NCBI GenBank assembly: GCA_902596655.1
Contig: CACJUX010000004.1
Coordinates: 1-64,000, forward strand
Length of the DNA: 64,000 nt
Direction: 5' to 3'
Origin: an uncultured SAR116 cluster alpha proteobacterium
Lineage (GTDB): Bacteria; Pseudomonadota; Alphaproteobacteria; Puniceispirillales; Puniceispirillaceae
The notes beneath the pieces were generated by a model, which ran no database searches, was not told the origin of the DNA, and saw only the letters and a list, made by a program, of their open reading frames with translations. A program made the position numbers and the translations under genes. Position 1 is the stretch's first letter. Every line of letters starts with the position of its first letter. Shown in pieces: positions 699-25,134 of this stretch.

Positions 699-1613
699 TC
701 ATTGTGCTTCTCCATAATAGAGGGAAACGACGTGTTTTGCCTCTGCAAAAAACAACCAACGCTCAATGAAAACTCCAACAAAGTGTAAAAATAACGCTAA
801 TCCGAGAAGCACAGAAGATGACGGAAACGAAATAAAAACAAGAAGGGGAATGAAGCCTCCTGCCAATATCGACATTACACGCAATTTAAGTGCATGACGG
901 CGAGCTACAACAAACCCCATTTCTGTCTGTAGATAATTTTCTGAGGTATGAGGGGGCATCAAAGGTCTCACTTTTCCAAAACTTCCAAGTCCCGTTGCGG
1001 ACTCCAGCGTACTCTCTGGCGACTGTTTATCTAGGTTTCTCCACCAGAGAACTTTAGCTACCCAAGCTAAAATTAATAAACAATAAGTGAGGTGGTATAT
1101 TTCAGAAATAAAACTTTGACCAGCTACTGCTAATAACCACATGCTGGCCAGAAGGCCTCCAGACACGCTGAACAGCAAATAGCAAGCAGGAGTTAAGGGA
1201 TGATGCCAACAGGCAACCGTTTTTAAGGAGGCGTAAATCATAGAAGTGGCGTAAACAGTCACACCTATCAAAAACACTAGCGGCAAACCTAACAAAAAAG
1301 GAACACTGCCTATCAAATAGTTCCATCCAAACCACACGGCTAGCAAGCTTAAAACCAAAACAGCAAGCACCCCTTCACGTGACAACCAACTTGAGCGCCA
1401 CTGACTTAGGGCCCTCCATGCTCGCTCTGGATGCCCCAAATGCAGCGTCGAGCTCAATAGGCCTGTTCCAATAAGGCCAAAAGTAAAAACTGAAACAATG
1501 AAAAAATTAATGACGTTTCCTAGGTCAATTAAGCCTAAGACAACCCATGCGGCTAGGCCCAAACCCAAACCAGAAGCGGAGGTGAAAAAAATAATCGACC
1601 ATGCAGGATGCAT
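699..1613 (-). CDS. soeC: DmsC/NrfD-type membrane anchor subunit of sulfite dehydrogenase (SoeC-like)
   Basis: A 304-residue polytopic membrane protein with about eight hydrophobic helices. It carries the DmsC-family stretch STLHLGHPERAWRALSQWRS followed by WLSREG. In this family the subunit anchors the molybdo-iron-sulfur enzyme to the cytoplasmic membrane and passes electrons to quinone. It is last in a tight three-gene minus-strand operon, three bases after soeB. Because the catalytic subunit has no Tat signal, the complex should face the cytoplasm, which fits SoeABC rather than periplasmic DMSO reductase. The name SoeC is inferred from this context; the DmsC family membership is read directly from sequence. 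Confidence 0.85.
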   Translation of the reverse strand: MHPAWSIIFFTSASGLGLGLAAWVVLGLIDLGNVINFFIVSVFTFGLIGTGLLSSTLHLGHPERAWRALSQWRSSWLSREGVLAVLVLSLLAVWFGWNYLIGSVPFLLGLPLVFLIGVTVYATSMIYASLKTVACWHHPLTPACYLLFSVSGGLLASMWLLAVAGQSFISEIYHLTYCLLILAWVAKVLWWRNLDKQSPESTLESATGLGSFGKVRPLMPPHTSENYLQTEMGFVVARRHALKLRVMSILAGGFIPLLVFISFPSSSVLLGLALFLHFVGVFIERWLFFAEAKHVVSLYYGEAQ

Positions 1614-1616
1614 ACT

Positions 1617-2360
1617 CTATCCAAGTCTTTCTAAAGTTGCATCCATCCATTTCCAAAAACCCTTTGGAGTTTGAGCTTCGGCCATGGCAACCAGGGACAT
1701 AGGTGTTTCATCTTTTTGCCGGCGTGGACGAGGAGGAAGGTATTTGTTAACAGGCTTTGTTTTTTGCTCAGGCAAAAGGTCGAAACCGTCCCTGGCAGAT
1801 ACAAGTTTGCTAACATCAGAGTTAGGGTCACCCAAGTCACCAAAATGCCGAGCATTAGTAGGACAGGTCCTAACACAGGCAGGAATCTGATCCTCTTTAG
1901 GCAAATTATCGTTATAAATTCTATCTACACAGAGCGTGCATTTCTTCATAACACCTTCGACTGGGTCCATTTCTCTTGCTCCATATGGGCACGACCAAGC
2001 ACAAAGGCCACATCCAATACACCAATCCTCATTTACCAAAACTATTCCATCTTCCGCGCGCTTAAACGATGCTCCAGTTGGACACGCAGTTACACAAGGA
2101 GCGTCTTCGCAATGCAAACAAGATTTTGGGAAATGAACAGTTTTGGCGTCTTCTGCGTCACCTGCTTCAAAGGCATGAACTCTATTAAGCCATGCTCCAT
2201 TTGGATTTGCCCCATACGCGTTGTCATCACTGAGCGGCGCGCCGTAGCCAGAAGTATTCCATTCTTTGCAATTAACAACACAGGCCTGGCATCCAACACA
2301 CAAGTCCAAGTCTATAACTAATCCAAGTTTTATAGCAGAAGGCTCTGGAAGGCTTGTCAT
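1617..2360 (-). CDS. soeB: Four-cluster ferredoxin subunit of sulfite dehydrogenase (SoeB-like)
   Basis: A 247-residue electron-transfer subunit with four cysteine groups of the DmsB/PsrB type: CVGCQACVVNC, CLHCEDAPCVTACP, CIGCGLCAWSCP, and CTLC followed by CVRTCP. These bind four [4Fe-4S] clusters carrying electrons from the molybdenum subunit to the membrane anchor. The start ATG overlaps the soeA stop (ATGA), so the two are translationally coupled. There is no signal peptide. The C-terminal tail (about residues 205-247) is unrelated to cluster binding. Confidence 0.88.
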   Translation of the reverse strand: MTSLPEPSAIKLGLVIDLDLCVGCQACVVNCKEWNTSGYGAPLSDDNAYGANPNGAWLNRVHAFEAGDAEDAKTVHFPKSCLHCEDAPCVTACPTGASFKRAEDGIVLVNEDWCIGCGLCAWSCPYGAREMDPVEGVMKKCTLCVDRIYNDNLPKEDQIPACVRTCPTNARHFGDLGDPNSDVSKLVSARDGFDLLPEQKTKPVNKYLPPRPRRQKDETPMSLVAMAEAQTPKGFWKWMDATLERLG

Positions 2361-5245
2361 ACTTTAGGCTCACTCTTGACTTTGGTTTTATTTCCAGTCC
2401 ATTGAAGCCCGTACCTCAAGGTTTTACTCGGGGTTGGCACCACACCGTTCATTCTTGGCAAGGCTGGGAATTGCGGAAACGCTTGAGTTGGTTCATTTGC
2501 GTCAGCTTTTCTTATGTTTACCTTCAGATCAAACCACGCTGCTTGACCAGTTATTGGGTCTGAGTTTGCCCATCTCTGGCCGTCACCCTTTGCGGGTAAC
2601 AGTTCGTGAATTAAGTGATTTAACAAGAAACCTTTTTTAGCCTCAGGAGCATCGTCTTCCAGCTGCCAGGCACCTTTTCTCTTACCAATAGCATTCCAAG
2701 TCCAAATGGTTTTTTCATTAAGACCCGCCATTATAGCCACTGGTACACGAATTTTACCGTGGTGCGACGTTACCCAAATCCAGTCCCCATCAGACAGGTT
2801 ATGTTCTTTTGCCAATTTTTGAGGAACAAACATGGGATTGTGCCCATGGATTTGTCTAAGCCAAGGGTTTTGCGAGCCCCATGAATGATACATTGCCATA
2901 GGGCGTTGGGTCAGAGCATGTAATGGAAATTCTTCCTCATCAACAGACGCCCCTTCAAATGGCGCATACCAAGTAGGTAAAGGAGTAAAACAACTTTTAA
3001 CTCTATCGCGCAGATGCTCAGGTGGCTGAATATTTCCATGACCTTCAGCTGCAAGGTGAAATTTCTGCAGAGGTTCGCTGTAAATCTGAAAGGCATAGGG
3101 TTGAGGGCTATCATAGATACCCATATCTACCGCAAACTCCTGATACGCTATGTTGGCCATTTTATAATATCGCGCTTCATGCGGTATGGATTTATGCCAA
3201 AATGCACCGTTGGCTATATATGCATCAAGTTGTCCTGGGTTAGGTTCACCGCGTCCAGATTGGGCCCCATTACCCCTAAATCCTGCTAGTGGCCCGATAC
3301 CTGGCTTGCGCTGGTGATTGACAATATAATCTCCATAATCTGAGTATCTGGCTCCCCCTTCCCCGTCGACCATGCCTGGAAGACCGAGCCTCGCCCCCAA
3401 ATCTAGCAATACCGATTGAAATCCTCTCACATCACGGTCTGGTTCAAAAACTGGCCACCTAATGGCGTCACAAACCGCATCTGCCTCGCAGATTGGTCTG
3501 TCCAATAAAGAAATAGCGTCATGGCGTTCTAAATAAGTGGTATCTGGCAAGATGAGATCTGCATAGGCGACCATTTCCGACGAATAGGCATCTGAATAGA
3601 TAATTTTTGGGATTTTATATTCACCAGTCTCAGGATCAGTTTCGGTGAGCATCTCCATCACACCGCGAGTGTTCATCGATGAGTTCCAAGCCATATTCGC
3701 CATATACATAAACAACACATCAACAGGATAGGGATCCCCAGCTACAGCATTGGAAATAACCATATGCATCAAACCATGAGCTGACATAGGTGCATCCCAG
3801 CTATATGCTTTATCAATCCTTTGTGGGCTTCCATCGGAACCAAGAAGAAGATCTTCTGGTCCCAGAACATATCCTAAAGGAGCCCCAGGTAATGGCTTGC
3901 CCGCGCTGACCTGATCTGGTCTACCTGCAGGCTTTGGGTGCGCTTCCGGCGGTTTTGGATAAGGGGGTTTAAACCGCCATCCTCCTGGCACCTCCACAGA
4001 TCCTAACATCAATTGTAAAACATGGAGAGCTCTACATGTCTGGAAGCCATTTGAATGAGCTGATATTCCTCTCATAGAATGCATGGCAACTGGACGGCCT
4101 ATCATCGTTTCATGCCGTTCTCCCTTCCAGTCCGTCCAAGGCTGTTTAATAACAATTTCTTTGGCAAAGGCAGCCTCGGCAAGATCTGCTGCAAATTGCC
4201 GAATTCTATCTGCCGCAATTCCAGTAGTGTTAGCTACTGCCTCCGGCGCATATGCATCGTCCATGTAAGTTTCAGTTAGAATCGTAAATGCAGGAGTAGC
4301 GATGCCACCACCGTCCAAAGGTATTTGGCCATTCATTGCAGAGCTGACATTCTTTGATTTATACGAAACGGCTTGACCTGTTGAGCGATCGAGAACCTGT
4401 GGTTCACCCGCAGCGTCACGCAAAAATAGACCGTCATTCGCAGCACCAGGGTTTCGGATGACTAGCCATGGAGAATTTGTATACCTACGGAGATAATCCA
4501 CATCAATATTACCAGAAAGCATCAATTCTCGGATTAGCGCAATTATCAACAAACCATCAGTTCCCGGTGTGATCCCATACCAATCATCAGAGATCGCTGC
4601 ATAGCCAGTTTGGACTGGGTTGACTGAAACAACCTTTTTTCCGCGGCTCTTGACTTTGCCAAGTCCGATTTTGATTGGGTTAGAGTCGTGGTCCTCTGCC
4701 ACACCAAATAAAACAAACATTTCCGTGAGTTCCCAATCAGGGGCGCCAAACTCCCAAAAAGCTCCACCAACAGTATAAATTCCACCGGCCGCCATATTGA
4801 CAGAGCAAAAGCCACCATGCGCCGCAAAATTTGGAGTCCCAAACTGCTGCGCCCACCAACTAGTCAGCGCTTGTGATTGATCCCGGCCAGTAAAAAAAGC
4901 TAGTTTTTTTGGGTCTGTGTTCCTGACCGGCTCTAACCAATTGGTTGCAGTGGATAACGCCTCTTCCCAACTCACTGGTTCAAATTGTCCAGACCCACGC
5001 GGACCAACTCTGCGCATTGGTGATTTGAGGCGTGCCGGCGAATAGTGCTGCATAATGCCAGCGGACCCTTTAGCGCACAACACCCCCTTATTTATTGGAT
5101 GATCCCGATTTCCTTCGATGTACCGAATTTTATCATCACGGATGTGTACATTGATCCCACATCTACACGCGCACATGTAGCATGTCGTCTTCTTGATCTC
5201 GTCATTGACTTTTGGACTGTATTCAATTTGAGGCTCAGAGGACAT
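2357..5245 (-). CDS. soeA: Molybdopterin catalytic subunit of cytoplasmic sulfite dehydrogenase (SoeA-like)
   Basis: A 962-residue molybdopterin-guanine-dinucleotide oxidoreductase of the DMSO reductase superfamily. Near the N-terminus it has a [4Fe-4S] motif (C22-x2-C25-x3-C29, and C57 in KGVLCAKG). The likely Mo-ligand cysteine lies in the HGGFCSVN segment. The C-terminal MGD-binding part includes PLHALTQRPM and HGHNPMF. There is no Tat leader, so the enzyme should be cytoplasmic. That is the feature separating SoeA (sulfite:quinone oxidoreductase) from periplasmic DmsA, PsrA or TtrA relatives. Neighbouring phosphotransacetylase, TauE-type exporters and sulfonate genes support sulfite as substrate. 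Thiosulfate, tetrathionate or polysulfide chemistry cannot be excluded from sequence alone. Confidence 0.82.
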   Translation of the reverse strand: MSSEPQIEYSPKVNDEIKKTTCYMCACRCGINVHIRDDKIRYIEGNRDHPINKGVLCAKGSAGIMQHYSPARLKSPMRRVGPRGSGQFEPVSWEEALSTATNWLEPVRNTDPKKLAFFTGRDQSQALTSWWAQQFGTPNFAAHGGFCSVNMAAGGIYTVGGAFWEFGAPDWELTEMFVLFGVAEDHDSNPIKIGLGKVKSRGKKVVSVNPVQTGYAAISDDWYGITPGTDGLLIIALIRELMLSGNIDVDYLRRYTNSPWLVIRNPGAANDGLFLRDAAGEPQVLDRSTGQAVSYKSKNVSSAMNGQIPLDGGGIATPAFTILTETYMDDAYAPEAVANTTGIAADRIRQFAADLAEAAFAKEIVIKQPWTDWKGERHETMIGRPVAMHSMRGISAHSNGFQTCRALHVLQLMLGSVEVPGGWRFKPPYPKPPEAHPKPAGRPDQVSAGKPLPGAPLGYVLGPEDLLLGSDGSPQRIDKAYSWDAPMSAHGLMHMVISNAVAGDPYPVDVLFMYMANMAWNSSMNTRGVMEMLTETDPETGEYKIPKIIYSDAYSSEMVAYADLILPDTTYLERHDAISLLDRPICEADAVCDAIRWPVFEPDRDVRGFQSVLLDLGARLGLPGMVDGEGGARYSDYGDYIVNHQRKPGIGPLAGFRGNGAQSGRGEPNPGQLDAYIANGAFWHKSIPHEARYYKMANIAYQEFAVDMGIYDSPQPYAFQIYSEPLQKFHLAAEGHGNIQPPEHLRDRVKSCFTPLPTWYAPFEGASVDEEEFPLHALTQRPMAMYHSWGSQNPWLRQIHGHNPMFVPQKLAKEHNLSDGDWIWVTSHHGKIRVPVAIMAGLNEKTIWTWNAIGKRKGAWQLEDDAPEAKKGFLLNHLIHELLPAKGDGQRWANSDPITGQAAWFDLKVNIRKADANEPTQAFPQFPALPRMNGVVPTPSKTLRYGLQWTGNKTKVKSEPKV

Positions 5246-12257: not shown

Positions 12258-13100
12258 TTATTTTAGTACAGCGAAGCTCTTCATAGCTTCGTCATGCAAT
12301 AGCTCCATAGCCTCTTTTTTATATTCAAACGCTTGTTCGGTCGTTAGCATCTTATAGTCTCGGGGTCTTGGTAACTTAATCTTCATAACTGTTTGCACTG
12401 TCGTTGGCTTATTTGAGAGAACGACTAAATTATCGGCAAGAAAAATAGCTTCGTCGATTTCTGATGTTACAAAGATGTTAGTTTTTTTGTTTTCCTCGAA
12501 CAAATCGAGAAAAAACTCTTGCATTAAACTCCTAGACATTGCGTCTAGCCCCCGAAAGGGTTCATCCATGATCATGACCGTTGGTTCATTTATCAAGGCC
12601 CGAGCAAGTTCCGCTCTTCGTTGCATGCCACCCGACAATTGAATTGGATATTTGTGAATAAATTCTCCTAAACCGACTTTGACGAGAAGCGCCTCAGCCT
12701 CATCTTTCAAAGCCTGGCCAGACTTGTCGCCACGCATTTTAGGGCCAAAAACAACATTCTCGTAAGTGGTCTGCCAGGGAATCAACGCTGTCTCTTGAAA
12801 AACCACCATGCGGTCTTTAGCTGGCCCTGTTATAGGCCTGTTATCAATCAGCACCTCCCCGCTATCTGGCGTTTCAAAGCCAGCCATGATATTAACTAAA
12901 GTGGACTTTCCGCAACCTGAAGGACCAACAATAACTGTGAGTTCACCGGCTGGGAATTCGATAGAGACATCTTTAAGCACGTCATCAGAAAGCCAGGCCT
13001 CTCCGTATGATTTTGATACATTACGTAACGTCACGCTCGCTGCATCATTTGGCACAACCTTTTTAGCGGGTTTCGATTTTAAGGTCTGCTTCACAGCCAT
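12258..13100 (-). CDS. ABC importer ATPase B, nitrate/sulfonate/taurine type
   Basis: A 280-residue ATPase of the SsuB/TauB/NrtD class: Walker A GPSGCGKSTLVN, signature LSGGMQRRAELARAL, Walker B VMIMDEPFRGLD. The expected switch position reads TSEIDEA where TauB-like proteins have THxxxEA, so the conserved His is replaced by Ser. It is the last gene of the five-gene importer operon. A gap of about 60 bases separates it from the preceding permease. It would energise import together with the second ATPase encoded upstream. The missing switch His suggests an asymmetric ATPase pair in which this subunit is weakly active. Confidence 0.9.
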   Translation of the reverse strand: MAVKQTLKSKPAKKVVPNDAASVTLRNVSKSYGEAWLSDDVLKDVSIEFPAGELTVIVGPSGCGKSTLVNIMAGFETPDSGEVLIDNRPITGPAKDRMVVFQETALIPWQTTYENVVFGPKMRGDKSGQALKDEAEALLVKVGLGEFIHKYPIQLSGGMQRRAELARALINEPTVMIMDEPFRGLDAMSRSLMQEFFLDLFEENKKTNIFVTSEIDEAIFLADNLVVLSNKPTTVQTVMKIKLPRPRDYKMLTTEQAFEYKKEAMELLHDEAMKSFAVLK

Positions 13101-13162
13101 TGCATTCTCCTAACACAGCACTTTATTTTTTCGCAGTCTATTTATGGCCAGTTATTTTTACT

Positions 13163-13987
13163 TCAGAAAAGGCGACGCCACGGCATCATAAAGTAACCAA
13201 GCTTCCTTATTGCGCTTGATGATAAATAGCCGGCTATACCAATCGAAATCATACCTACCACGATTTGTTCGAGAGATCCGCCCATGTAGGAATTCCATAT
13301 GAAGAAACCAAGTCCTCCGCCACCTTGGGTACCGCCCCCGGAGATCATTTCTGCGGCAAGCACAACCTCCCACGTAATACCCATACCCACAGCTGCTCCG
13401 GTAAAAATGGACGGGAGAGTGCCTGGTAAGACAATCTTCCAAAACAGGTCGAATTGCGACGCGCCCATTGACTGAGCTGCCCTGAGATAACTGATGTCAA
13501 TAGACCTTGCACCCCCAAGAACATTGATCACGATTGTGAAAAACGCTCCTAGGAAAGTGACAAATGCGATTGACATCTCATTAGTTGGCCAAAAAATAAG
13601 AGATGCTGGCACCCAAGCCAGCGGCGGTATCGGCCGCAAAATTTCGAATGGTGGGAAAAACAAGCCTCTAAAATACCTATTAACTGCCAACAATAGCCCA
13701 AAAGGTATTCCAATCAACATTGCAACCAAAAAGCCAGTGAGCACCCGACTAAAACTGGAAACCCAACTCTGCCAATAGCCGATTTTTGGTATCACCTCCA
13801 AAAACGCGGCAAACACATCTGCTGGTGGTGGGACTAAACCAATACCGATGATATCAACACCAAACCAATCATCAAACAAAGCTCCTACATGCCAAATCAC
13901 GAGAAAAATTAGGATCGCACTAACACCCCTTTTCAAGGTTACCTGTCCCATGAGTTTAGCAAAAAAACTTTTTTTCGTTGAAGTCAT
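13163..13987 (-). CDS. ABC importer permease B, nitrate/sulfonate/taurine type
   Basis: A 274-residue binding-protein-dependent permease of the SsuC/TauC/NrtB class. It shows six hydrophobic helices and the coupling-helix region AAQSMGASQFDLFWKIVLPGTLPSIFTG, typical of this family. The second permease of the operon carries a matching segment, so the two probably form a heterodimeric channel. It lies between the two ATPase genes on the minus strand. Confidence 0.92.
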   Translation of the reverse strand: MTSTKKSFFAKLMGQVTLKRGVSAILIFLVIWHVGALFDDWFGVDIIGIGLVPPPADVFAAFLEVIPKIGYWQSWVSSFSRVLTGFLVAMLIGIPFGLLLAVNRYFRGLFFPPFEILRPIPPLAWVPASLIFWPTNEMSIAFVTFLGAFFTIVINVLGGARSIDISYLRAAQSMGASQFDLFWKIVLPGTLPSIFTGAAVGMGITWEVVLAAEMISGGGTQGGGGLGFFIWNSYMGGSLEQIVVGMISIGIAGYLSSSAIRKLGYFMMPWRRLF

Positions 13988-14037
13988 CGTTTCCTCGAAC
14001 AGTTTACCAATCTATGCAAAGTTTTTGTCAGCCTTAA

Positions 14038-14889
14038 TCAAGCCATTTCTCTTTCGCCAGCCTGAAATGCCTTCACAGCCTCTTCATGAACGGCATCACT
14101 CACTTCCTCCAGCAACTTTCTGAAAGCTTCTGACGATTGAGTCTCATACGATCTAGGCCTTGGAATTTTCACTTCCACGGTTTTCTTAAGCTGGCATGGT
14201 CTCGTTGTGACAATATGCACCTTATCACCCAGGAAGATCGCCTCCTCCAAATCATGCGTAATGAAAAAGATCGTAACGCCGGTGCGGTCATAAGTCTCAA
14301 GTAAAGACTCATGCATAATTTGTTTTGTTAGAGCGTCCATAGCCCGGTAGGGCTCATCAAGTAGCAAAACTTTAGGGTCGTTTATAAGGGCCCTAACAAT
14401 CTCTGCACGCCTGGCCATGCCAGATGAGACTTCCCCCGGATATTTTGTGAGGAAATCTCCCAACCCTGCCTCGGCAAGCATCGTACCAGCTTTATCCATT
14501 GCTTCGCGCGATCCCAAAACTTTTTGGACTATTGGGCCGTACGCCACATTTTCTTGCAAAGTTTTCCATGGGAACAAAGCGCCATGCTGGAAAACCACCA
14601 TTCTATCTGCGCCCTGGTCAGCTAGTGGTTTGCTAGGGCCACACAAAAGCTCCCCGTCGAGGTGAATGCTTCCCTCAGTGACAGAGTGAAAACCAGCAAT
14701 TGCATTCAAAAGTGTTGTTTTGCCGCAACCAGATGGCCCGACAATCATACAAACTTCACTGCCAGCGATTTCCATAGAGCAATTGTCAACTGCCATGACA
14801 TTTACTCCCTCAGGGTCGTACACCTTCGTGACATTTTTGATGCTCAGTGCGCCTAAGCCTGAGTTTCTATTTTTTTCTTTTGTCATCAA
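14038..14889 (-). CDS. ABC importer ATPase A, nitrate/sulfonate/taurine type
   Basis: A 283-residue ATPase: Walker A GPSGCGKTTLLN, Walker B VLLLDEPYRAMD, switch His in FFITHDLEEA. The signature reads EVSSGMARRAEIVRAL, with Ser where the second residue of the usual SGG is expected (SSGM). Compared with the partner ATPase at 12.3-13.1 kb, this one keeps the switch His and the other keeps the canonical signature. That fits a heterodimer with one consensus site. It starts 15 bases after the upstream permease stop. Confidence 0.92.
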   Translation of the reverse strand: MMTKEKNRNSGLGALSIKNVTKVYDPEGVNVMAVDNCSMEIAGSEVCMIVGPSGCGKTTLLNAIAGFHSVTEGSIHLDGELLCGPSKPLADQGADRMVVFQHGALFPWKTLQENVAYGPIVQKVLGSREAMDKAGTMLAEAGLGDFLTKYPGEVSSGMARRAEIVRALINDPKVLLLDEPYRAMDALTKQIMHESLLETYDRTGVTIFFITHDLEEAIFLGDKVHIVTTRPCQLKKTVEVKIPRPRSYETQSSEAFRKLLEEVSDAVHEEAVKAFQAGEREMA

Positions 14890-14904
14890 ATTTTCCCCAC
14901 ATCC

Positions 14905-15792
14905 CTATCGACCTTGTTGGCTAAGCTCTTTGACATGCCAAGCCATCAATTTATTTCCAAGCATACGGACCAGTGCTGAGCTGAAATAGCCTATGAAGCC
15001 AAGAGTAATCATCGCAATTACCATTGGTACGGTGACGTTGTTCATGTAGGCGTCCACAATCAAGTAACCCAAGCCAAGATCACCGGACACCATCTCTGCG
15101 GCTACAAGTGAAAACCAAGCCACGCCGATTGAAATTTGAAGTCCAGTAAAAATAAAGGGAAGCGCACCTGGGACTACAACATTCTTAAAAACATCCCACC
15201 TACTCGAACCAAGGCATCCAGCCGCTCGAAAATACTCCTCATCAATTGAGTCAACGCCCAACATGGCATTGAGAGTTGTTACAAAAAATGATGCCAAAGT
15301 TGCGAGGAAGAGCACTGGCCCTTCAAAACCCGGCAACAGCAAAATCGAAAGTGGCACCCAAGCAAGAATTGGTATTGGCCTTAGAACTTCGATTATTGGA
15401 AAAATATAATCTCTTATTGTTCTAGACCACCCCATGAAGAGGCCCAGCGGCACCCCAAATGCCGTGGCAATTCCAAACGCGATAAGAATACGTCGGCAAC
15501 TTACGATAATATGATCGTAATATTCCTGAGTAAATATTGATATTCCCTGAAATGGATCAACTGCAAACCAATCTTTTGATATTGCAACTGGTCCCGGAAG
15601 CTTATCAAATCTCCATATTTGCAAACCCTCGCAAAGTACCCAATAGGCAAATAGCCACAAACCAATACCCATTAATGTAAGGTAAGGGTCTAATTGACCC
15701 AGGTACTTCTTTGTTTTGTAGACAAACAAATTAAATCCCTGAGGTGCAACCATTTTGCCGTTTTGATTTGTAGTTGAGGAGTTTGCACTCAT
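14905..15792 (-). CDS. ABC importer permease A, nitrate/sulfonate/taurine type
   Basis: A ~295-residue permease with the family signature AAGCLGSSRWDVFKNVVVPGALPFIFTG and six helices. Compared with typical SsuC it has an extra N-terminal hydrophobic segment (LTLMGIGLWLFAYWVLCEG). I place the start at ATG 15792 (MSANSST), which has GGGGAT six bases upstream, instead of the longer frame opening at 15828. It follows the binding-protein gene after an intercistronic hairpin. Confidence 0.9.
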   Translation of the reverse strand: MSANSSTTNQNGKMVAPQGFNLFVYKTKKYLGQLDPYLTLMGIGLWLFAYWVLCEGLQIWRFDKLPGPVAISKDWFAVDPFQGISIFTQEYYDHIIVSCRRILIAFGIATAFGVPLGLFMGWSRTIRDYIFPIIEVLRPIPILAWVPLSILLLPGFEGPVLFLATLASFFVTTLNAMLGVDSIDEEYFRAAGCLGSSRWDVFKNVVVPGALPFIFTGLQISIGVAWFSLVAAEMVSGDLGLGYLIVDAYMNNVTVPMVIAMITLGFIGYFSSALVRMLGNKLMAWHVKELSQQGR

Positions 15793-15869
15793 GTCGATCC
15801 CCACACTTAATACGATGCCCAATGCCATCGAAAAGACTGTCGTTAACGATAAATTAAATTAATAGAGGA

Positions 15870-15899
15870 GTTGGGACTCAGATTAGTCTGAGCCCCAAC
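15870..15899 (-). other. Intercistronic hairpin after the binding-protein gene
   Basis: Arms at 15870-15882 and 15887-15899 pair with a single G:U-type mismatch around a TTAG/CTAA loop. On the transcribed (minus) strand it lies directly after the binding-protein stop and is not followed by a clean U run. It is better explained as an mRNA-stabilising or partial-attenuation element that raises binding protein over permease than as a full terminator. Confidence 0.5.
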
Positions 15900-15907
15900 C
15901 GATGTTT

Positions 15908-17011
15908 TTATTTTGCGACGATGCGCCCGACCGGCGTGGTAAGACCACGCTTCTCTAACACACGCTCAGCAAACTGACCCATCACGCCTTCGGGACGAAT
16001 TTGTGGCGCAGCAGCAGGCTTCTTCTTCAGGCTGTAAAGAAAAGCAGTTGCATCACGAAGTAGAGATTTTGCGTCATCACTAATCACAAAGTCTAGTTGA
16101 AGCTTTGTTGTGCCTGACATTGGTGAGTCATACAGGCTAGCTTTCAACACGGACCTATCTATCTTCTCAGTCTGAGCCTCAGCCATAGCTGCTATCGCAT
16201 CAGCATTTGCTGGATCAGCAACAAACTCTTGAGCATCCAGCTCAGCTTCCAACCAGCCCATTACAGCATCCGGCCGCTGCGAGATAAGGTCATTTAACAT
16301 CACCATGAATGCCCCGTCTTGCGCACCGAAATCCTCTCCAGATGCAGCTCGGCGAGCAATCCCAGCTGAGACCATTTTAGATGCGGTAGGCTCCCAGATT
16401 GCCGCAGCGTCCAGTTTACCTGCACGGAAGTTTGTCGTGATGACCTCAATATTCTGGTTGAGGTACTTAGCGGGTTTGATGCCAGCTTTTTTGAACGCAA
16501 GCTGTGCAAACCTGTCGGTACAAGCACCATGCGGCGCTGAAGTAACTTTGCCATCCATCCACTTGACAGCATCAACGCCATTTGCAAATTGCGGCGCATC
16601 ATTTCTTACCAAAAAGATGTTACACTGCTGCTTTGACGTTCCAAGTGCTGCAACAATCCTTATGTCTGTGCCGCCCCTTTCAGGAAGATATTTAAATGTC
16701 GAAGCGATGGCTGGCATGTCGCCCATGTATCCAATGTGCTGCTTTTCACCAGCCATGGCGTTTACAATTACCGAACCCTGAAGCCCGACCTGAAACTCAG
16801 CTGTTGACCCCGCTGGCAAATGGTTTTTCCAAAAAGATTTGCCATTGTTTACCACGCCCGTCCAAGACTCAGTGTAATAAGGCTGGTAACCAATCACCAA
16901 GTTAACGGCCTCCCCAGGTTTCCCAAAATCTACGCCAGCAGACGCAGACAAAGGTGCCATCGCGACAGCAGCTGCTATCCCAAGGCTTTTAAGTTTTTTC
17001 ATATTTGGCAT
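15908..17011 (-). CDS. Periplasmic substrate-binding protein, sulfonate/nitrate (NMT1/SsuA-like) family
   Basis: A 367-residue exported binding protein. The signal peptide is visible (MKKLKSLGIAAAVAMAPLSASA, cleavage near residue 25). It is followed by an NMT1/SsuA-type two-lobed fold with VNLVIGYQPYYTESWTGVV and, later, GKLDAAAIWEPTA, the family's signature near the ligand cleft. It is first in a minus-strand importer operon and divergent from the oxygenase genes. A strong GGAGGAG lies just before the ATG. By position it plays the part of MsmE, the binding protein of the methanesulfonate importer; I cannot assign the ligand from sequence. Unlike SsuA it has a long C-terminal tail rich in Ala/Pro. 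Confidence 0.9.
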   Translation of the reverse strand: MPNMKKLKSLGIAAAVAMAPLSASAGVDFGKPGEAVNLVIGYQPYYTESWTGVVNNGKSFWKNHLPAGSTAEFQVGLQGSVIVNAMAGEKQHIGYMGDMPAIASTFKYLPERGGTDIRIVAALGTSKQQCNIFLVRNDAPQFANGVDAVKWMDGKVTSAPHGACTDRFAQLAFKKAGIKPAKYLNQNIEVITTNFRAGKLDAAAIWEPTASKMVSAGIARRAASGEDFGAQDGAFMVMLNDLISQRPDAVMGWLEAELDAQEFVADPANADAIAAMAEAQTEKIDRSVLKASLYDSPMSGTTKLQLDFVISDDAKSLLRDATAFLYSLKKKPAAAPQIRPEGVMGQFAERVLEKRGLTTPVGRIVAK

Positions 17012-17399: not shown

Positions 17400-19790
17400 G
17401 TGATGGGACAAAGTGTAACAACCAACAGGCAGAACGCAAACGAAAGCCCCTTTAATGATAATTCTAACGAAACGTTAAAGCGCGGGAAAGAGGCGTTTTA
17501 CAAGGAACAGCAGAACATTTTCAAAAACGTATGGGTACCCGTATGTCATGAGTCAGAGCTTCTAGACCCATACGATTTTCGAACAAGCAGTATTGGTAAT
17601 GACAACATTATCATCTGCAGAGCACCCGACGGGAAAGTCAATGCTTTATTAAACGTTTGCCCACACCGTGGGATGTTGATTGAACGTCGTCCTCAAGGCA
17701 GTTTCCTTGAAGGCCAAGCATCCGGAAACCCGAAAAGAATCACCTGCATGTTTCATGCGTGGCAGTTTGATATGAGAGGCAACTGCGTTTACGTTGCGCG
17801 CGAAAAAGAAGGTTACCAAGATAGGTTTTGTAAAGATGATGCAGGACTCAGACGATTAAGGTGCTCAGTTGGCTTTGGAGGTTTTGTATGGGTCAATATG
17901 AGTGATCAGCCAGTCGCTTCACTGGAGTATTGGATTGGAGAAGCCCTCGCACCAATAGAGAAGCAAATTAGCTCCTCCCGCTTGGAAGTGGTGCATTATC
18001 ACAAGGAAATGATACAAACAGGATACAAAGACGAAATTTTGAATGGGCTAGGACGTACCGTAGGACTGTTTAATAATTTGTTCTTTCCTTTTGGGCACTG
18101 CGCCTCTCACAGCGCGGACGAAAAAATTGGTTCAAGTGGCGAAAATAAGTTTCCCGCTCCTAGTTCAACACAGTCGATCAGGGTGAATTTGTTTCCAGGT
18201 TACGTGTTCCACTTAGACGGACCCACTCTTAATGTTTCTACCATCACACCTGTGTCGGAAAACCAAGTCATGGTAGAACATAGAGGGTTGGCACCAACGA
18301 ATGATAGTGAACAGGATCGCCTTTCACGTTCTAAGCATTACAACAGCATTTTCGGCCCATTTCGGTCTCCAAAAAGCGAAAGTTCGACCCCCAACGGCAA
18401 GCCAGAGAGCAAAAATCCAGAGTTGGCCAAGCATTACAATGAGGAATGGTCACGATGGATGGACGAACACTATAAAGGGGGATCCGATTTGTCCGACCGT
18501 CTCGTTGCGCAGGGTCAGAGAGCCAATACCGATTTGGAGTCTGACCTTGCCGGACCGAAAGTGGTTGTGGTTGGAGCCAGCCATGCCGGTATTGCGTTTG
18601 CGGACAAACTTAGGAAAAACAATTTTACCGGGCCTATCGCGATTTTTGACAGACAGGTCGGTGGTCCTATGGAAAGGCCGCCATTATCGAAAGGCTTTCT
18701 TCTTGGCGGTGGGGAGACCGTAGAGGCTAAATCGCTGCTTAGACAAAAAAAATGGTACAAAAACAACAAGGTACGTCTCAAAACGCAATCCATAGTACAC
18801 TCTGTTGACACAACACAAAAAACTATAACTGTTAACAATGGAGTGATTGTCAACTATGACAAACTTGTGATTGCCAGCGGAGCAAAACCTAGAGAATTAC
18901 CTGACACGGTTGGCGTTGCGAATGCGTTTACTCTAAGACAGCCTTCCGATGCCAATGCAATCCGCCAAGCAGCAAACAATGCCGACTCAGTGGTGATCAT
19001 TGGTGGAGGATACATTGGGTTAGAAGTGGCTGCCTCGCTAAGAAAAAAAGGGTTGGTGGTCACAGTGATTGAGGCCGCTGAGAGGATTCTAGCGAGGGTT
19101 GCAAGCAAGCCCTTGGCAGAGCATTTCCAAAAATTGCATGAAAATCAAGGGGTCAAAATTTTCACTGGGATTGGAGTAGATAAAATTGACCATGAAGATG
19201 GGATTTTTACTGGAGTCGTTCTATCTGATGGAAACGAAATCAAAGCAGACATTTTGATCACAGGCATTGGAGTTTTTCCAGATAGCAAGTTGGCAGCAGA
19301 TGCAGGGATTGAAACTCAGCGTGAAAACGGTGGAGCCATTCTTGTCGACGAGACAATGAAAACAAGCGACGAAGATGTTTACGCAATTGGTGATGTTGCT
19401 ATCCGGCGTGATCAAGACTTGGCAATCGAGTCAGTGCACAATGCCCAAGAAACGGCCTCAATAGCTGCTGCTGCAATTACCAACACTTCATTACCAGTTA
19501 TACAAACACCCTGGTTTTGGTCTGACCAATACGACACAAAATTGCAATCCGTTGGTATCGTTCCAGTGGGGGACAGTGACGTTTATCAAGTTGCGCGACC
19601 AGGCAAAAAAGAGGGCGGCATTTCCTTTTGGAGCTATAGAGATGAAAATTTGATAGCTGTCGAGGTTGTCAATGACCCCGCGACTTACATGGAAGCGCGT
19701 CAATGTTTGGATACCAAGCAGTCGCCAGACCCGAAACAAATCTCAAATCGCTCTTATTCACCGATTGATAGTGGAGGAGCGCGATCCTGA
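17400..19790 (+). CDS. Msm-like Rieske alpha subunit (iron site lost) fused to FAD/NAD(P)H ferredoxin reductase
   Basis: A 796-residue fusion. Residues 1-~360 resemble the large subunit of methanesulfonate monooxygenase (MsmA). The Rieske ligands C87, H89, C116 and H119 are intact with 26 residues between the pairs, a spacing longer than the usual 17 and one I recall as characteristic of MsmA. Where the iron site should be (about 209-235) the sequence is YKDEILNGLGRTVGLF, with no D/E-x2-H-x-H. The segment that should hold the C-terminal Asp ligand is replaced by a Ser/Pro-rich linker after FGPFR (322). Residues ~386-770 are a BphA4/CamA-type reductase: FAD motif VVVVGASHAG, ERPPLSK, NAD motif VVIIGGGYIG and YAIGDVA. 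The likely role is electron input and storage for the partner alpha subunit at 21.98 kb. GTG 17400 or ATG 17403 starts, with AGGA upstream. Confidence 0.85.
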   Translation: MMGQSVTTNRQNANESPFNDNSNETLKRGKEAFYKEQQNIFKNVWVPVCHESELLDPYDFRTSSIGNDNIIICRAPDGKVNALLNVCPHRGMLIERRPQGSFLEGQASGNPKRITCMFHAWQFDMRGNCVYVAREKEGYQDRFCKDDAGLRRLRCSVGFGGFVWVNMSDQPVASLEYWIGEALAPIEKQISSSRLEVVHYHKEMIQTGYKDEILNGLGRTVGLFNNLFFPFGHCASHSADEKIGSSGENKFPAPSSTQSIRVNLFPGYVFHLDGPTLNVSTITPVSENQVMVEHRGLAPTNDSEQDRLSRSKHYNSIFGPFRSPKSESSTPNGKPESKNPELAKHYNEEWSRWMDEHYKGGSDLSDRLVAQGQRANTDLESDLAGPKVVVVGASHAGIAFADKLRKNNFTGPIAIFDRQVGGPMERPPLSKGFLLGGGETVEAKSLLRQKKWYKNNKVRLKTQSIVHSVDTTQKTITVNNGVIVNYDKLVIASGAKPRELPDTVGVANAFTLRQPSDANAIRQAANNADSVVIIGGGYIGLEVAASLRKKGLVVTVIEAAERILARVASKPLAEHFQKLHENQGVKIFTGIGVDKIDHEDGIFTGVVLSDGNEIKADILITGIGVFPDSKLAADAGIETQRENGGAILVDETMKTSDEDVYAIGDVAIRRDQDLAIESVHNAQETASIAAAAITNTSLPVIQTPWFWSDQYDTKLQSVGIVPVGDSDVYQVARPGKKEGGISFWSYRDENLIAVEVVNDPATYMEARQCLDTKQSPDPKQISNRSYSPIDSGGARS

Positions 19791-19907: not shown

Positions 19908-20408
19908 ATGACAAACGCAAGCGCAGTGGAAATCGAAAAAAAAATCGAAAAAATTATCTATCAAACCGCATTAGCCCTAGACGATAATGACTGGAAGAGT
20001 TGGTTTGACCTCTGTGATGACGCCTTTTTTTACTCGATCACGTCCTTCAGTCCGGAAATAAACAAAAAGATGACCTACTTTAGTGGCAACAAAAAAGAGT
20101 TGGTTGGTTTGATGGACATGTTACCAAAACACAACACCGATCACTCTCCACTTCACCGACATACCTCTGTCTATACTATTGACGTTGGGGATGAAGGTCG
20201 GTCTGCTACAGCAATCAGTTCAGTAACAATTTATCAAAATATGCTTGATGGCATTAATTCTCATCTGGACTCGGGTGAGAGCAGGCTCTTTGTCATCGGC
20301 AAATACTTCGACGAGTTTACGATAGAAAATGGCAACCCAAAATTTTTGAACCGTGAAACTAAACTAGATAATAGACGTCTTGATAAGGGTTCTCATTGGC
20401 CTTTGTAA
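19908..20408 (+). CDS. Ring-hydroxylating-type oxygenase beta subunit (MsmB-like)
   Basis: A 166-residue protein of the NTF2/SnoaL-fold small-subunit family of Rieske oxygenases. Its features are the N-terminal helix with ALDDNDWKSWFDLCDD, the central HRHTSV segment, and the C-terminal FLNRETKLDNRRL that normally packs against the alpha subunit. It is structural, not catalytic, in this family. It lies 117 bases after the fusion gene; an imperfect hairpin (19810-19843, 7-base arms) sits between the two. Length and fold fit MsmB. It would hold together the alpha/alpha-prime assembly. Confidence 0.85.
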   Translation: MTNASAVEIEKKIEKIIYQTALALDDNDWKSWFDLCDDAFFYSITSFSPEINKKMTYFSGNKKELVGLMDMLPKHNTDHSPLHRHTSVYTIDVGDEGRSATAISSVTIYQNMLDGINSHLDSGESRLFVIGKYFDEFTIENGNPKFLNRETKLDNRRLDKGSHWPL

Positions 20409-20476: not shown

Positions 20477-20881
20477 ATGGCTTGGACAAAAGTCTGTGAA
20501 AAGAGTGAAATACCCGAAGGCTCAATTAAAAAAGTGTGGGCAAGAATTGGAGGGGGCATACCCATTGCAGTCGCTCACCATAAAAACGGCTATGTCGCGA
20601 TCCCACCTGTCTGCCCACATCTAGAAGAGCCATTAGAAGATTCCGGTTTAGTCACTGGATGCAAATTAACTTGTACAAAACATCTATGGTCGTGGGACCT
20701 AGAGACCCTTGAGCTTAAAGATGAAGCGGAACTTCCGTTGAAAACTTACGATATAAAAGTCGACGGGGATAATCTAATGGTCTACGTCACTGAGCAGTTA
20801 GAATACACATTTGACGAAGATGAAGATATTGATGAAGAGACTTTCTTTCACGATGACGATGATTACGATGACATCTGGTAA
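20477..20881 (+). CDS. Rieske [2Fe-2S] ferredoxin (MsmC/T4moC-like) with acidic tail
   Basis: A 134-residue soluble Rieske ferredoxin. The ligands are C46, H48, C66 and H69, with the standard 17-residue spacing (CPH...CTKHLW). The HLWSWDLETLELKDEAELPLKTY block resembles toluene monooxygenase ferredoxin T4moC. It would carry electrons from the reductase domain of the 17.4 kb protein to the oxygenase cluster. The C-terminal 25 residues are extremely acidic (many Asp/Glu), which could guide docking. It has a good ribosome site (GAAGGTAG). It is in line with the beta-subunit gene, 68 bases apart. Confidence 0.92.
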   Translation: MAWTKVCEKSEIPEGSIKKVWARIGGGIPIAVAHHKNGYVAIPPVCPHLEEPLEDSGLVTGCKLTCTKHLWSWDLETLELKDEAELPLKTYDIKVDGDNLMVYVTEQLEYTFDEDEDIDEETFFHDDDDYDDIW

Positions 20882-20916: not shown

Positions 20917-21735
20917 TTGTATTCATTGAGTAATTGGCCCAACATTGAAGTATTTCAGACGAAACAATACCGTGATGCGCGCGTTGAAGCTCATAATGCG
21001 CTTTTTTGGATGGCACGTGCTGCTCACAGTTTCGTGGAACCAATGCCAGAGAATGCTCACTTAAACTTATCATGGGAAAATGATTCTGCCGATTTCAGAA
21101 CGCAAATTTTTGGTGACAATATACAAATCGGCATAAATTTGCCTGAATTGGAGCTTTATTTTTGTGAAAAAAAAGAAAAAGTGCCGCACAGTTTTTGGCT
21201 TGATGATAGAACTCCCGCGTTTGTTGAGGCTTGGTACTTAGTAGAATTACTGCACAGGGGTATTGATCCTGAGACATTTTCAACATCCTTACCATTCGAC
21301 TCAAAAAACATGGTGATGGGAGACACGCAGGATCACAATGCGTCACTATACAAAAAAGAACTTACCGCTCTGAAAGACTGCATTCATAATACAATTCCCA
21401 TCCTTGAAGGGCTAGCGAACCGATTGCGAATTAATAACAAAATAGGAAAAGATCCACATAAAATCGTTTTGGAGCCAGAGACCTTTACCTTGATTTTGAC
21501 CAACATTCCAACCAAAAACGTTAACCAGAAAATTACTACTGGGTTAAGTGCCGGCGATAATTTACGTCAAACACCCTTTTTGTTTACCAAATCGATTGAT
21601 CAAGCTAACGGTTCAACAAACCATCTTTTGGATTACAACCCTGAATGTTTAATTACCCTCGAATCGATCATCAGCAAAGCCATCACTCAAGACGAACTAG
21701 TGAACAACTTGTGCTCGTTTTTAGTAAAGGAATGA
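20917..21735 (+). CDS. Unrecognised 272-residue protein of the oxygenase operon
   Basis: The frame opens with TTG at 20917, 35 bases after the ferredoxin stop, and closes just before a clear terminator, so it is the last gene of the oxygenase operon. I do not recognise a family. The protein is soluble with no signal peptide or membrane helix. The N-terminal half has aromatic-rich segments (HNALFWMARAAHSFVEP, SFWLDDRTPAFVEAWYLVELLH) and the C-terminal half is mixed alpha/beta. It has four cysteines that form no obvious metal motif. Its conserved location between ferredoxin and second alpha subunit suggests assembly, a regulatory subunit or substrate-handling function. Confidence 0.7.
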   Translation: MYSLSNWPNIEVFQTKQYRDARVEAHNALFWMARAAHSFVEPMPENAHLNLSWENDSADFRTQIFGDNIQIGINLPELELYFCEKKEKVPHSFWLDDRTPAFVEAWYLVELLHRGIDPETFSTSLPFDSKNMVMGDTQDHNASLYKKELTALKDCIHNTIPILEGLANRLRINNKIGKDPHKIVLEPETFTLILTNIPTKNVNQKITTGLSAGDNLRQTPFLFTKSIDQANGSTNHLLDYNPECLITLESIISKAITQDELVNNLCSFLVKE

Positions 21736-21959: not shown

Positions 21960-21979
21960 AAACCGTGGAGACGTTAGTA

Positions 21980-23068
21980 ATGGCCCCCAGAAATCACAAA
22001 AATTGGTTGAAAACTCCGAAAGTAGAATACATTTCAAGCGAGTGTTATAATAATTATGGCATTTATGAACAAGAGATTGAACATATCTTCTCAAAAGTCT
22101 GGGTGCCGATGTGCCACATAAGTGAGATGGCCAATGATGGAGATTTCCGTTCTACACAGATTGCGAACAAAAATGTTGTAGCGGTAAATCGTAGCGGTGA
22201 CGTCCACGTCTTCATTTGTCCATCAATTGATCTCCCTGCTGGCAACGGCATAGACACTGAAGGACTTCACAGACTGCACAGTGAAATTAAACACGGCGGA
22301 ATGGTCTGGACCACTCTCGACGAAAATCCTAGCATGAGTGTCGAAGAATGGACATGCGGCGCTTTTGACTGCATCGCAGATGCTATTGATGCTGAAGAGA
22401 TGGAAGTGTTTCACTATCACAAAGCAGTGATCGACACGAATTACAAACTTTGGCACGATACAAACAGTGAATTTTACCATGATTTTATGCATTATTTTAA
22501 TCGAGTGTCGGGTTTTAATGATGAATACTTCGCTCGCAAAAATATACCATTTGACAATGGACACGTGAATGTTAGCAGCTTCACCGTGAACTACGAGGAA
22601 TATGATGGTTTTGAAGACCGCGGTGAGCTCTCATTTCCTAACCTCCCGCCTAACCAATGGTATATGGTGGATTTGTTTCCAGGCTATAATTTTAACTTAC
22701 GGGGCAATGCATATAGGAGCGATATTGTTACTCCGTTGGGACCGAACCGTGTTCTTATCGAATTTCGCGGTTATGGGTTGAAAAAAGATACACCGGAAGA
22801 AAGAGCGACTCGCGTGAAAGCCCATAATTCAATTTGGGGCCCTTTTGGCAGAAACCTGCATGAAGACTTGATTGGTGTTGCAGGTCAGGGCACGACTATG
22901 AGGGAAGGAACAGAAACCCGTAACATTCTTCACGGTCGACACGAAAACTCAACTATTCATGATGAAGTTGGAATGAGACACTATTACGAGGCCTGGGGAA
23001 GATTTCTTGGGTTAAACCCTATGAACCCACTTGCGGTGCTTCAAGACAACGTGCAAGCGGCAGAGTAA
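21980..23068 (+). CDS. Msm-like catalytic alpha subunit lacking the Rieske cluster
   Basis: A 362-residue protein closely resembling the MsmA catalytic domain. The iron site is intact in outline: D160-x3-E164-x2-H167-x3-H171 (NYKLWHDTNSEFYHDFMH) plus D296 in GPFGRNLHEDL as the likely third ligand. Glu replaces the usual bridging Asp, as in some carnitine-type oxygenases. The Rieske region is gone: C80 is followed by PSID, with no second His or Cys pair, and a deletion of about 47 residues relative to the 17.4 kb protein rejoins at GGMVW. It cannot receive electrons by itself and should depend on the Rieske domain of the fused protein. The start is ATG 21980 with GGAG nine bases upstream; an earlier GTG at 21965 is less likely. 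Confidence 0.85.
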   Translation: MAPRNHKNWLKTPKVEYISSECYNNYGIYEQEIEHIFSKVWVPMCHISEMANDGDFRSTQIANKNVVAVNRSGDVHVFICPSIDLPAGNGIDTEGLHRLHSEIKHGGMVWTTLDENPSMSVEEWTCGAFDCIADAIDAEEMEVFHYHKAVIDTNYKLWHDTNSEFYHDFMHYFNRVSGFNDEYFARKNIPFDNGHVNVSSFTVNYEEYDGFEDRGELSFPNLPPNQWYMVDLFPGYNFNLRGNAYRSDIVTPLGPNRVLIEFRGYGLKKDTPEERATRVKAHNSIWGPFGRNLHEDLIGVAGQGTTMREGTETRNILHGRHENSTIHDEVGMRHYYEAWGRFLGLNPMNPLAVLQDNVQAAE

Positions 23069-23174: not shown

Positions 23175-24095
23175 TTAGTAAAGGTATTTTTGTAATTCAC
23201 CCGTCTCTGCTAACGATTTCGCAATTTTTTCAGCGATACGCGGCATTGGCATTATGTTATCAGTTTTGACCCAAAATAGAGATACGGTTTTTTCTACCGA
23301 CGGCTCCTTCAATAAAAGAGCTTTGGTACCATCAAGCAAACCTGGCATACGTGTAAAGTGAGTGGGTATGATAGTACACAGTTCAGTGTACTGTGTTTGG
23401 AACATCAAATGAAGTATGGATTCAGACTCAATTTTTGGAATAACCTCACAATCCAAACGTCGGAAAATATTATCAACCAGCCGACGTTCATGCATTGAAG
23501 ATCGAAGCATGGCAAAGGGCAGTTTTGATGCATCTTTCCAAGAAATTTCCTCAATTTTCTCAAATTCAAAAGAGTCAGGCACGAGCAAACTCCAACTCTC
23601 CTCAAATATCGGCTGTGCATTACACCAAGACATTTCGTCCTCGTGATCGCTATAAGTAATCGCACAATCCAGAGCATATTTGTCTAAACTAACTTTTAAC
23701 TCATCATTTCCAACAAAATGAACATCAACCGAAACGCCCGGATATGCCGATCTAATCCTTTGCAAAATAATTGGCAGAACCGGTGACATGGATGGCATAG
23801 CTCCAATACGCAGCCGACCTTGTAGGTTGTGTTTCATATCCCCAATGTCATCATGCATTGCGTTACAGTTAGCGAGGATCAGACGTGCCCACTTCGACAC
23901 TTTTTGCCCTTCTTCAGTAATGCCATACAAGCGTTGTCCGCGACCACGCTTGAAAAGCGTGATACCGAGTTCTCTCTCAAGCTGCTTAATACCATTTGAC
24001 AAGCTAGGCTGTTTTACATTGCATCGTTCAGCAGCGCGACCGAAATGGTCTTCTTCGATGACTGCGATCAAATATTCAAGTTGCCTCAAAAACAC
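23175..24095 (-). CDS. LysR-family regulator (OxyR/CbbR-like length)
   Basis: A 306-residue LysR protein. The N-terminal HTH is DHFGRAAERCNVKQPSLSNGIKQLE with the following FKRGRGQRLYGITEEG wing. The effector domain includes LRIGAMPSMSPVLPIIL and a C-terminal FWVKTDN block. It lies convergent with the second alpha subunit and divergent from the TauE gene (283-base gap with a palindrome). Likely targets are the TauE-PanB-Fhs genes and possibly the oxygenase. The inducer cannot be predicted. Confidence 0.9.
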   Translation of the reverse strand: MFLRQLEYLIAVIEEDHFGRAAERCNVKQPSLSNGIKQLERELGITLFKRGRGQRLYGITEEGQKVSKWARLILANCNAMHDDIGDMKHNLQGRLRIGAMPSMSPVLPIILQRIRSAYPGVSVDVHFVGNDELKVSLDKYALDCAITYSDHEDEMSWCNAQPIFEESWSLLVPDSFEFEKIEEISWKDASKLPFAMLRSSMHERRLVDNIFRRLDCEVIPKIESESILHLMFQTQYTELCTIIPTHFTRMPGLLDGTKALLLKEPSVEKTVSLFWVKTDNIMPMPRIAEKIAKSLAETGELQKYLY

Positions 24096-24378: not shown

Positions 24379-25134
24379 TTGGAAGCCTTATCCATTAACC
24401 TCCTTTCTTTTCTTGCATGTGGCTTTTTATCAGGCTTGTTGATTGGTGCAGTTGGAATTGGTGGCGTCATTTTAGTGCCTCTGCTGACTTTTGCTCTTGG
24501 TGTGGACATCTATCAGAGCATTGCGGCAAGCATTTTTGCTTTTGTAGTCTCGGGTCTTGTTGGCACTTTTAATTATGCAAAACGAAAGGTAATTTCATGG
24601 AGAGATATAAAATTTATCTGGATTGGCGCTGCACCATCAACACTGTGTGGCGCAATATTGCTTTCGCATGTAAGCAAAGAACTCTTGACCCTACTGATTG
24701 CTTTTTTAGCTCTTGGCTCTGCTATTAGGGAATTCCTTAAGCAGCAGAACAAATCTCATGATTTCACTATTGTAATTTCGAGAAGTAAGCTGATTTTCAT
24801 TGGTGCTTTCACTGGTTTTTTCTCGGCCTTAAGCGGTACTGGTGGGCCGCTAATTCTCATCCCACTAATGCTTTGGTCTTCTGTCCCAATAACTATTGCT
24901 ATTGGCCTTGCCCAGTCGATTCAATTACCTATTTCTATTTTTGCTACTATCGGAAATAGCTGGAGCGGTATTCTCAATTTTTCTATCGCATTTCCTCTGG
25001 CTACGGGCATTGCTTTCGGCACCTACTACGGAGGGGTTTGGATTAGAGGATTTTCAACTTCACAAATTAAGAAAGGCGTTGCGATTATTTTGGCTGCAAT
25101 CGGAATCGCAATGACCATCTCTGTTATAATTTAA
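24379..25134 (+). CDS. TauE/SafE-family permease 1
   Basis: A 251-residue membrane protein with about eight helices and the duplicated TauE motif: GLLIGAVGIGGVILVPLL near the N-terminus and SALSGTGGPLILIPLML mid-protein. The family exports sulfite, sulfoacetate or related anions. The start is TTG with GAGGTG upstream. It is first of a plus-strand run leading into the PanB paralogue. Context suggests sulfite or sulfonate-derived anion export. Confidence 0.88.
   Translation: MEALSINLLSFLACGFLSGLLIGAVGIGGVILVPLLTFALGVDIYQSIAASIFAFVVSGLVGTFNYAKRKVISWRDIKFIWIGAAPSTLCGAILLSHVSKELLTLLIAFLALGSAIREFLKQQNKSHDFTIVISRSKLIFIGAFTGFFSALSGTGGPLILIPLMLWSSVPITIAIGLAQSIQLPISIFATIGNSWSGILNFSIAFPLATGIAFGTYYGGVWIRGFSTSQIKKGVAIILAAIGIAMTISVII

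Follow-up and report, generated by a model that had tools for sequence, protein, structure and literature searches.

Probable division of an MSAMO-type Rieske oxygenase alpha subunit into two complementary chains in a SAR116 bacterium

A Rieske oxygenase of the methanesulfonate monooxygenase (MSAMO) type has probably been split by reciprocal loss in an uncultured SAR116 cluster bacterium, its single alpha subunit now being represented by two complementary chains. The window (the whole stretch of 64,000 nucleotides analyzed) encodes: (i) a chain in which a Rieske domain is fused to a reductase, and (ii) a Rieske-less paralogue with an intact mononuclear iron site. With one site removed from each chain, the pair is a clear-cut natural experiment on the rule of intersubunit electron transfer. 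According to a 2025 review, the Rieske oxygenases have yet to yield a self-sufficient system (PMC12445004). The window holds a natural oxygenase-reductase fusion in that family, yet the fused protein is not predicted to be self-sufficient, as the iron lies in the other chain.

Fused Rieske-reductase chain

The fused gene (17400-19790 with its stop codon, forward strand) encodes 796 residues in a stop-free frame (17400-19787) that starts at GTG (17400) or ATG (17403). A preliminary description of this DNA placed the feature at 18555-19790, a range that delimits the reductase part correctly but not the gene, which starts at 17400/17403. Its proposal that a Rieske subunit and an FAD/NAD(P)H reductase form one chain is borne out by the uninterrupted frame, by PDB matches and by the Pfam domains Rieske (residues 45-133, 5e-16), Pyr_redox_2 (387-686, 6e-64) and Reductase_C (705-785, 1e-18); a stop between residues 360 and 386, for which the frame in the window was inspected, is not there. 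The FAD motif (GASHAG from residue 392, position 18573) and the NAD motif (GGGYIG from residue 535, position 19002) reside exactly where they had been reported. Both dinucleotide motifs and Reductase_C, the marks of a BphA4/CamA-type reductase, are thus present, and the best PDB matches of the C-terminal part (rubredoxin/putidaredoxin reductase and BphA4-type enzymes) agree with this assignment. The reductase shares Pyr_redox_2, Reductase_C and the FAD and NAD motifs with the BphA4/putidaredoxin reductase family, whose members are stand-alone proteins of about 400 residues; by contrast, here it is attached as C-terminal domain to a Rieske alpha-like chain (14/15 loci).

The Rieske [2Fe-2S] ligands C87, H89, C116 and H119 (17658-17756) follow the pattern CxH-X26-CxxH, as they do in all 15 fused chains compared. 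The 26 residues between H89 and C116 correspond to the long spacer used to recognize MSAMO, which is described as typical of MsmA (PMC4433239). Beyond the Rieske domain is a remnant of the alpha catalytic domain that has lost the iron ligands (17988-18464, approximately residues 197-355), as seen by alignment; its dN/dS is 0.18-0.24. A Ring_hydroxyl_A domain is absent from the fused chain in the Pfam search. The AlphaFold2 model has a pLDDT mostly below 50 over the N-terminal half, and this half of the model is unusable.

Judged by its ligands, the product of 17400-19787 is no longer an oxygenase, with the Rieske ligands kept and those of the mononuclear iron gone. The label of oxygenase subunit in the preliminary description therefore fails, as the iron-site segments EFYHDFMH and HEDLI are missing from all 15 fused chains. 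That description also implied a self-sufficient enzyme, with NADH, FAD, Rieske center and oxygen activation in one polypeptide. The union of Rieske domain and reductase is suggestive of such an enzyme; however, the same missing segments and the lack of Ring_hydroxyl_A leave it with next to no credibility, and it is rejected because the fused chain has no iron ligands. Thus, NADH, FAD and the Rieske center share one chain, but the oxygen-activating iron does not; the iron site is found in the Rieske-less paralogue (21965-23065), outside the range first described.

Rieske-less paralogue and reciprocal loss

The Rieske-less alpha gene (21965-23068, forward strand; 367 residues, ATG alternative at 21980) is 2.2 kb downstream of the fused gene. 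Its product (21965-23065) has a Ring_hydroxyl_A catalytic domain and no Rieske match in Pfam, and in pairwise alignment to the fused chain the gap in the Rieske-less chain spans the cluster-binding loops, which are deleted. The iron-site segment EFYHDFMH (22469-22492) includes H172, H176 and E169, the latter presumed to be the bridging carboxylate by analogy with E205 of CntA (PMC7948474), and the HEDLI segment (22859-22873) includes D301, presumed to be the third iron ligand. Most of the predicted model of the chain (mean pLDDT 72.5) is covered by matches to complete alpha subunits, such as terephthalate dioxygenase (TPADO) and CntA; thus, according to the model, a shrunken Rieske scaffold persists. 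A viral fold search with the Rieske-less chain returned two matches with E <0.001, both with an identity of about 10% and a TM-score close to 0.4.

The loss is reciprocal when the fused (15), bacterial Rieske-less (16), viral (27) and one-chain (67) proteins are aligned. The CxH and CxxH motifs are conserved in 15/15 fused chains and in none of the 16 bacterial Rieske-less or 27 viral chains; by contrast, EFYHDFMH and HEDLI are found in 0/15 fused, 16/16 bacterial Rieske-less and 27/27 viral chains. Among columns that are nearly invariant (at least 95% conserved in the 67 one-chain MsmA), the 44 of the Rieske region are retained at a fraction of 0.89 in the fused chains compared to 0.175 in the bacterial Rieske-less and 0.157 in the viral chains, whereas the 118 of the catalytic region are retained at 0.34, 0.94 and 0.94, respectively. 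The segment ahead of the Rieske loops is kept about equally in all groups (0.60-0.65). With one chain devoid of the iron segments and the other devoid of the cluster loops, the two are, as read from their sequences, complementary halves.

All parts of both chains are under selection. Nei-Gojobori estimates of dN/dS from six pairs, which are rough as some dS values exceed 1, are 0.018-0.045 for the Rieske part of the fused chain, 0.029-0.085 for its reductase, 0.031-0.081 for the N-terminal part of the Rieske-less chain and 0.005-0.034 for the catalytic part of the latter (one of the six pairs not computable). The catalytic remnant of the fused chain is the fastest-evolving and least constrained part (0.176-0.238), and its residual constraint would fit a scaffold that holds the complex together.

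Gene neighborhood

Between the two alpha genes, all on the forward strand, are genes for an MsmB-like beta subunit (19908-20408; 166 residues, 66% identical to MsmB of the one-chain locus L122), an MsmC-like Rieske ferredoxin (20477-20881; 134 residues, 61% identical to MsmC of L122) and a conserved 272-residue protein without a family (20917-21735), which occurs in many msm loci, both fused and one-chain. The retention of a separate Rieske-type ferredoxin, as first described, is thus confirmed. Upstream of the fused gene and divergent from it are msmEFGH-like ABC transporter genes (12258-17011, reverse strand), of which the MsmE-like product (15908-17011) is 91% identical to MsmE of L122 and the next three are 84-87% identical. 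The MSAMO hallmarks MsmB, MsmC and an msmEFGH-type transporter are therefore all represented, at 66%, 61% and 84-91% identity to L122. Downstream are a LysR-type regulator (23175-24095, reverse strand) and a TauE-like membrane protein that is a probable sulfite exporter (24379-25134, forward strand), both named by reading the sequence. Methanesulfonate is probably the substrate, based on these neighbors and on homology. At 702-5245 on the reverse strand, genes for 962, 247 and 304 residues resemble a DMSO-reductase-like trio, likewise named by reading; in the locus L114 such a trio lies between msmC and the gene of the family-less protein.

Proposed electron path

The sequences show the domain content, the complementary ligands, the reciprocal constraint, the co-occurrence and the loss of MsmD; that both chains reside in one complex is inferred, as are the path of the electrons, what the ferredoxin does and which substrate is used. 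Electrons would pass from NADH to the FAD of the fused chain, and from there by way of the MsmC-type Rieske ferredoxin (20477-20881) to the Rieske center of the same chain. They would then cross the subunit interface via E169 to the iron of the Rieske-less chain, where O2 and methanesulfonate would be converted to formaldehyde and sulfite. The Rieske-less chain has a glutamate at a CntA-like spacing from the first histidine ligand (E169 and H172), the corresponding histidine of CntA being residue 208. In CntA, the bridging glutamate E205 is described as essential, and the Rieske-iron distance as 44 Å within a chain and 12.2 Å between neighboring chains (PMC7948474). The same source describes electrons of ordinary Rieske oxygenases as moving from the Rieske center of one alpha subunit to the iron of the neighboring chain; as transfer normally occurs between neighbors, the two sites never needed to be on the same polypeptide. 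In a three-membered ring, however, only a contact between a fused and a Rieske-less chain would be productive, so that no more than one interface in three could function. Such a ring stoichiometry counts against the reading as a split oxygenase.

Two variants of the path differ in the role given to the ferredoxin. In one, the iron of the Rieske-less chain receives its electrons straight from the ferredoxin (20477-20881), and the fused chain is a mere ferredoxin reductase with a vestigial alpha domain. The Rieske ferredoxin retained beside the fused gene and the loss of the iron site from the fused chain are in line with this route; however, constraint on the Rieske region of the fused chain equals or exceeds that on the reductase (dN/dS 0.018-0.045, with 0.89 of the nearly invariant columns kept), unlike in a vestige, and one-chain systems with the same MsmC still keep the Rieske center of alpha, such that we consider this variant unlikely. 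In the other, the split is the same but FAD reduces the Rieske center directly, within or between fused chains, with the ferredoxin as an accessory. The fusion does bring both groups into one chain; yet MsmC-type ferredoxin genes adjoin the fused gene in the loci compared, and BphA4-type reductases normally pass electrons to a Rieske-type ferredoxin, which makes this second variant equally doubtful. That the ferredoxin gene has persisted next to the fused gene favors a split oxygenase in which the ferredoxin serves as a bridge over one in which it is a dispensable side branch.

Distribution and integrity of the fusion

A scan of named genomes for relatives found 94 loci, of which 80 were kept: 67 with one alpha chain and 13 fused (one of them split). 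In each of the 67 one-chain loci, a single chain combines CxH-X26-CxxH with an iron-site motif; the HEDLI pattern is present in 65/67. The fused chain of L133 has no HEDLI, the segment that resembles the pattern being another one. For 9 of these 13 fused loci the slice also contains the Rieske-less gene; for the remaining four (L125, L131, L136 and L166, of genomes G002, G007, G059 and G007, respectively), the contig ends or the Rieske-less gene is elsewhere in the same genome. Two full sets of fused and Rieske-less genes occur in G007 (L112 and L113), each pair about 11 kb apart and in divergent orientation.

When each chain was used as a query against 61 genomes of the family, the Rieske-less chain was detected in 12 and the fused Rieske chain in exactly these 12: 10 have it complete, G059 has it split and G057 has it on contig ends. 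Both chains were absent from the remaining 49 of the 61 genomes, where matches were at most to the reductase part, and no one-chain MsmA was found among the 61. The co-occurrence in 12/61 does not represent 12 independent events, as the genomes are related and the genes mostly linked. Among 385 genomes drawn from the class, five have a match at E <= 1e-50: the genome of the window, two from the family that figure in the count above and two that have another kind of two-alpha system. In these last two, adjacent alpha genes of a different Rieske oxygenase are observed (L244 6317-8649 and L245 6328-8720), one product having both metal sites and the second alpha having kept the iron site but not the Rieske ligands, which are deleted in G433 and mutated in G129. 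Such a loss of the cluster from one of two alpha chains may recur.

An assembly artefact or a decaying pseudogene would be suspected from the draft state of the window's genome (73% complete) and from the frame broken in one relative. By contrast, related genomes, in which the preliminary description proposed to look for a stop or frameshift, mostly have the frame intact: 14 of the 15 fused loci compared show no interruption, including that of the window and L114 of G010, a genome in a single contig of 2.75 Mb, and purifying selection is strong. The independent genomes and the dN/dS values lead us to reject an artefact or pseudogene, the likelihood of which is negligible. The exception is the single-cell genome G059, in which the fused gene (L119 14689-17072, the same locus as L136) is broken at the linker into frames of 330 and 465 residues; these overlap by a few bases and represent a real fission or an indel.

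Evolutionary history

Classical MsmD is a separate plant-ferredoxin-type reductase, as stated in the preliminary description (347 residues; Fer2, FAD_binding_6 and NAD_binding_1). An ordinary MsmD is found in 54 of the 67 one-chain loci, the 13 without it including short contigs, compared to 0/13 fused loci; in the window, no MsmD match was detected in positions 1-30000. Two loci outside the fused group, L135 and L172, have an ordinary MsmA and a separate gene for a related reductase, with no match to MsmD in their slices. Homologues with separate genes, which the preliminary description had named as evidence against the fusion, thus exist; as they adjoin the fused clade on the reductase tree, they are read as the ancestral state and not as a refutation, and their arrangement is likely that which preceded the fusion. 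On this tree, the 15 reductases of fused loci are on one side of a branch (99), with the separate reductases of L135 and L172 as their neighbors (95); together, these 17 are separated (100) from 19 further reductases of the family.

On the tree of all alpha chains, the fused and the bacterial Rieske-less groups are each on one side of a branch (99 and 96, respectively); owing to long branches, this tree does not fix the position of the duplication among the one-chain MsmA. In the fused chains of G010/L114 and L133, the remnant is longer and less decayed, and these two branch separately from the rest of the fused group. The simplest order of events would be an exchange of the reductase, followed by duplication of alpha with fusion and reciprocal loss.

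Comparison with known systems

MsmABCD systems, such as those of Methylosulfonomonas methylovora M2 and Filomicrobium, resemble that of the window in the homologous alpha, beta and ferredoxin components, the X26 spacer, the divergent msmEFGH transporter and the sulfur and C1 genes nearby (PMC4433239). By contrast, the single alpha of MsmABCD holds both metal sites and its MsmD is separate and of the plant-ferredoxin type, whereas the system of the window has two complementary alpha chains, a fused BphA4-type reductase and no MsmD.

The nearest known split is NdmCDE, the 7-methylxanthine N7-demethylase (caffeine) of Pseudomonas putida CBB5, presented as the first reported case of this kind, in which a Rieske-less catalytic chain likewise works with a Rieske domain fused to a reductase (PMC4408171). 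The same source describes the NdmD reductase as FMN-type with two [2Fe-2S] clusters and the GST-like NdmE as required. The system of the window instead has an FAD-type BphA4 reductase (Pyr_redox_2 and Reductase_C) and no FMN-type one, and retains an alpha scaffold remnant on the Rieske chain, a separate Rieske ferredoxin and the beta subunit. The 272-residue protein (20917-21732), considered as an NdmE-like partner, has no Pfam or NCBIfam match and only weak PDB matches (E 0.03 and weaker). The system works like NdmCDE but is not classed with it, given the other reductase family, the retained alpha scaffold, the beta subunit and the ferredoxin, the comparison being with the published description of NdmCDE.

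Phage-borne catalytic half

Rieske-less chains were noted before: one of two IMCC1322 'MsmA' and the 'MsmA' of phage HMO-2011 are described as lacking the Rieske motif (PMC4433239), and the HMO-2011 gene is discussed among auxiliary genes (PMC4928673). In their passages on these genes, neither source names a partner for the missing Rieske cluster. The chains from HMO-2011 and IMCC1322/GOS are of the same type as 21965-23065; unlike here, they are not paired with an iron-less Rieske-reductase chain in the pertinent text of PMC4433239. The new element is therefore the complementarity of the Rieske-less 'MsmA' and the iron-less Rieske-reductase chain; no published description of such a pair was recognized in a literature search of mainly open-licence papers. 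The pair is a candidate explanation for the Rieske-less 'MsmA' reported from HMO-2011 and ocean metagenomes (PMC4433239). Counts of msmA based on the Rieske motif miss the Rieske-less chains.

IMG/VR was scanned with the Rieske-less chain, and the best 80 of at least 600 matches were kept. None of these best 80 has the Rieske ligands, all contain EFYHDFMH and HEDLI, and no homologue of MsmB, MsmC or the reductase was found in their flanks of up to 5 kb. HMO-2011, the host of which is IMCC1322, carries a Rieske-less gene (70% identical), with genes for lysozyme, terminase and portal protein nearby. On the tree of Rieske-less chains, the bacterial ones are monophyletic (99) and the viral ones next to them paraphyletic, HMO-2011 being the first to diverge; this topology only hints at a viral source of the bacterial chain. 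A phage chain devoid of the other subunits fits complementation by the host, although it falls short of proof. We lean, if only slightly, toward a scenario in which the split evolved independently of NdmCDE into two half-dead alpha paralogues, and in which phages with the catalytic half plug into the Rieske-reductase half of the host, keeping or raising methanesulfonate oxidation during infection.

Phages may also carry one subunit each of two sulfur-oxidizing enzymes. An aprB-like gene is present in the fetched stretch of 8 of the best 80 (of at least 600) viral loci, and in L031 (4526-5011), L033 (4526-5011) and L083 (4532-5008) the AprB-like (adenylylsulfate reductase beta) gene is directly upstream of the viral Rieske-less msmA; the copy of L033 passes the TIGR02060 cut-off.
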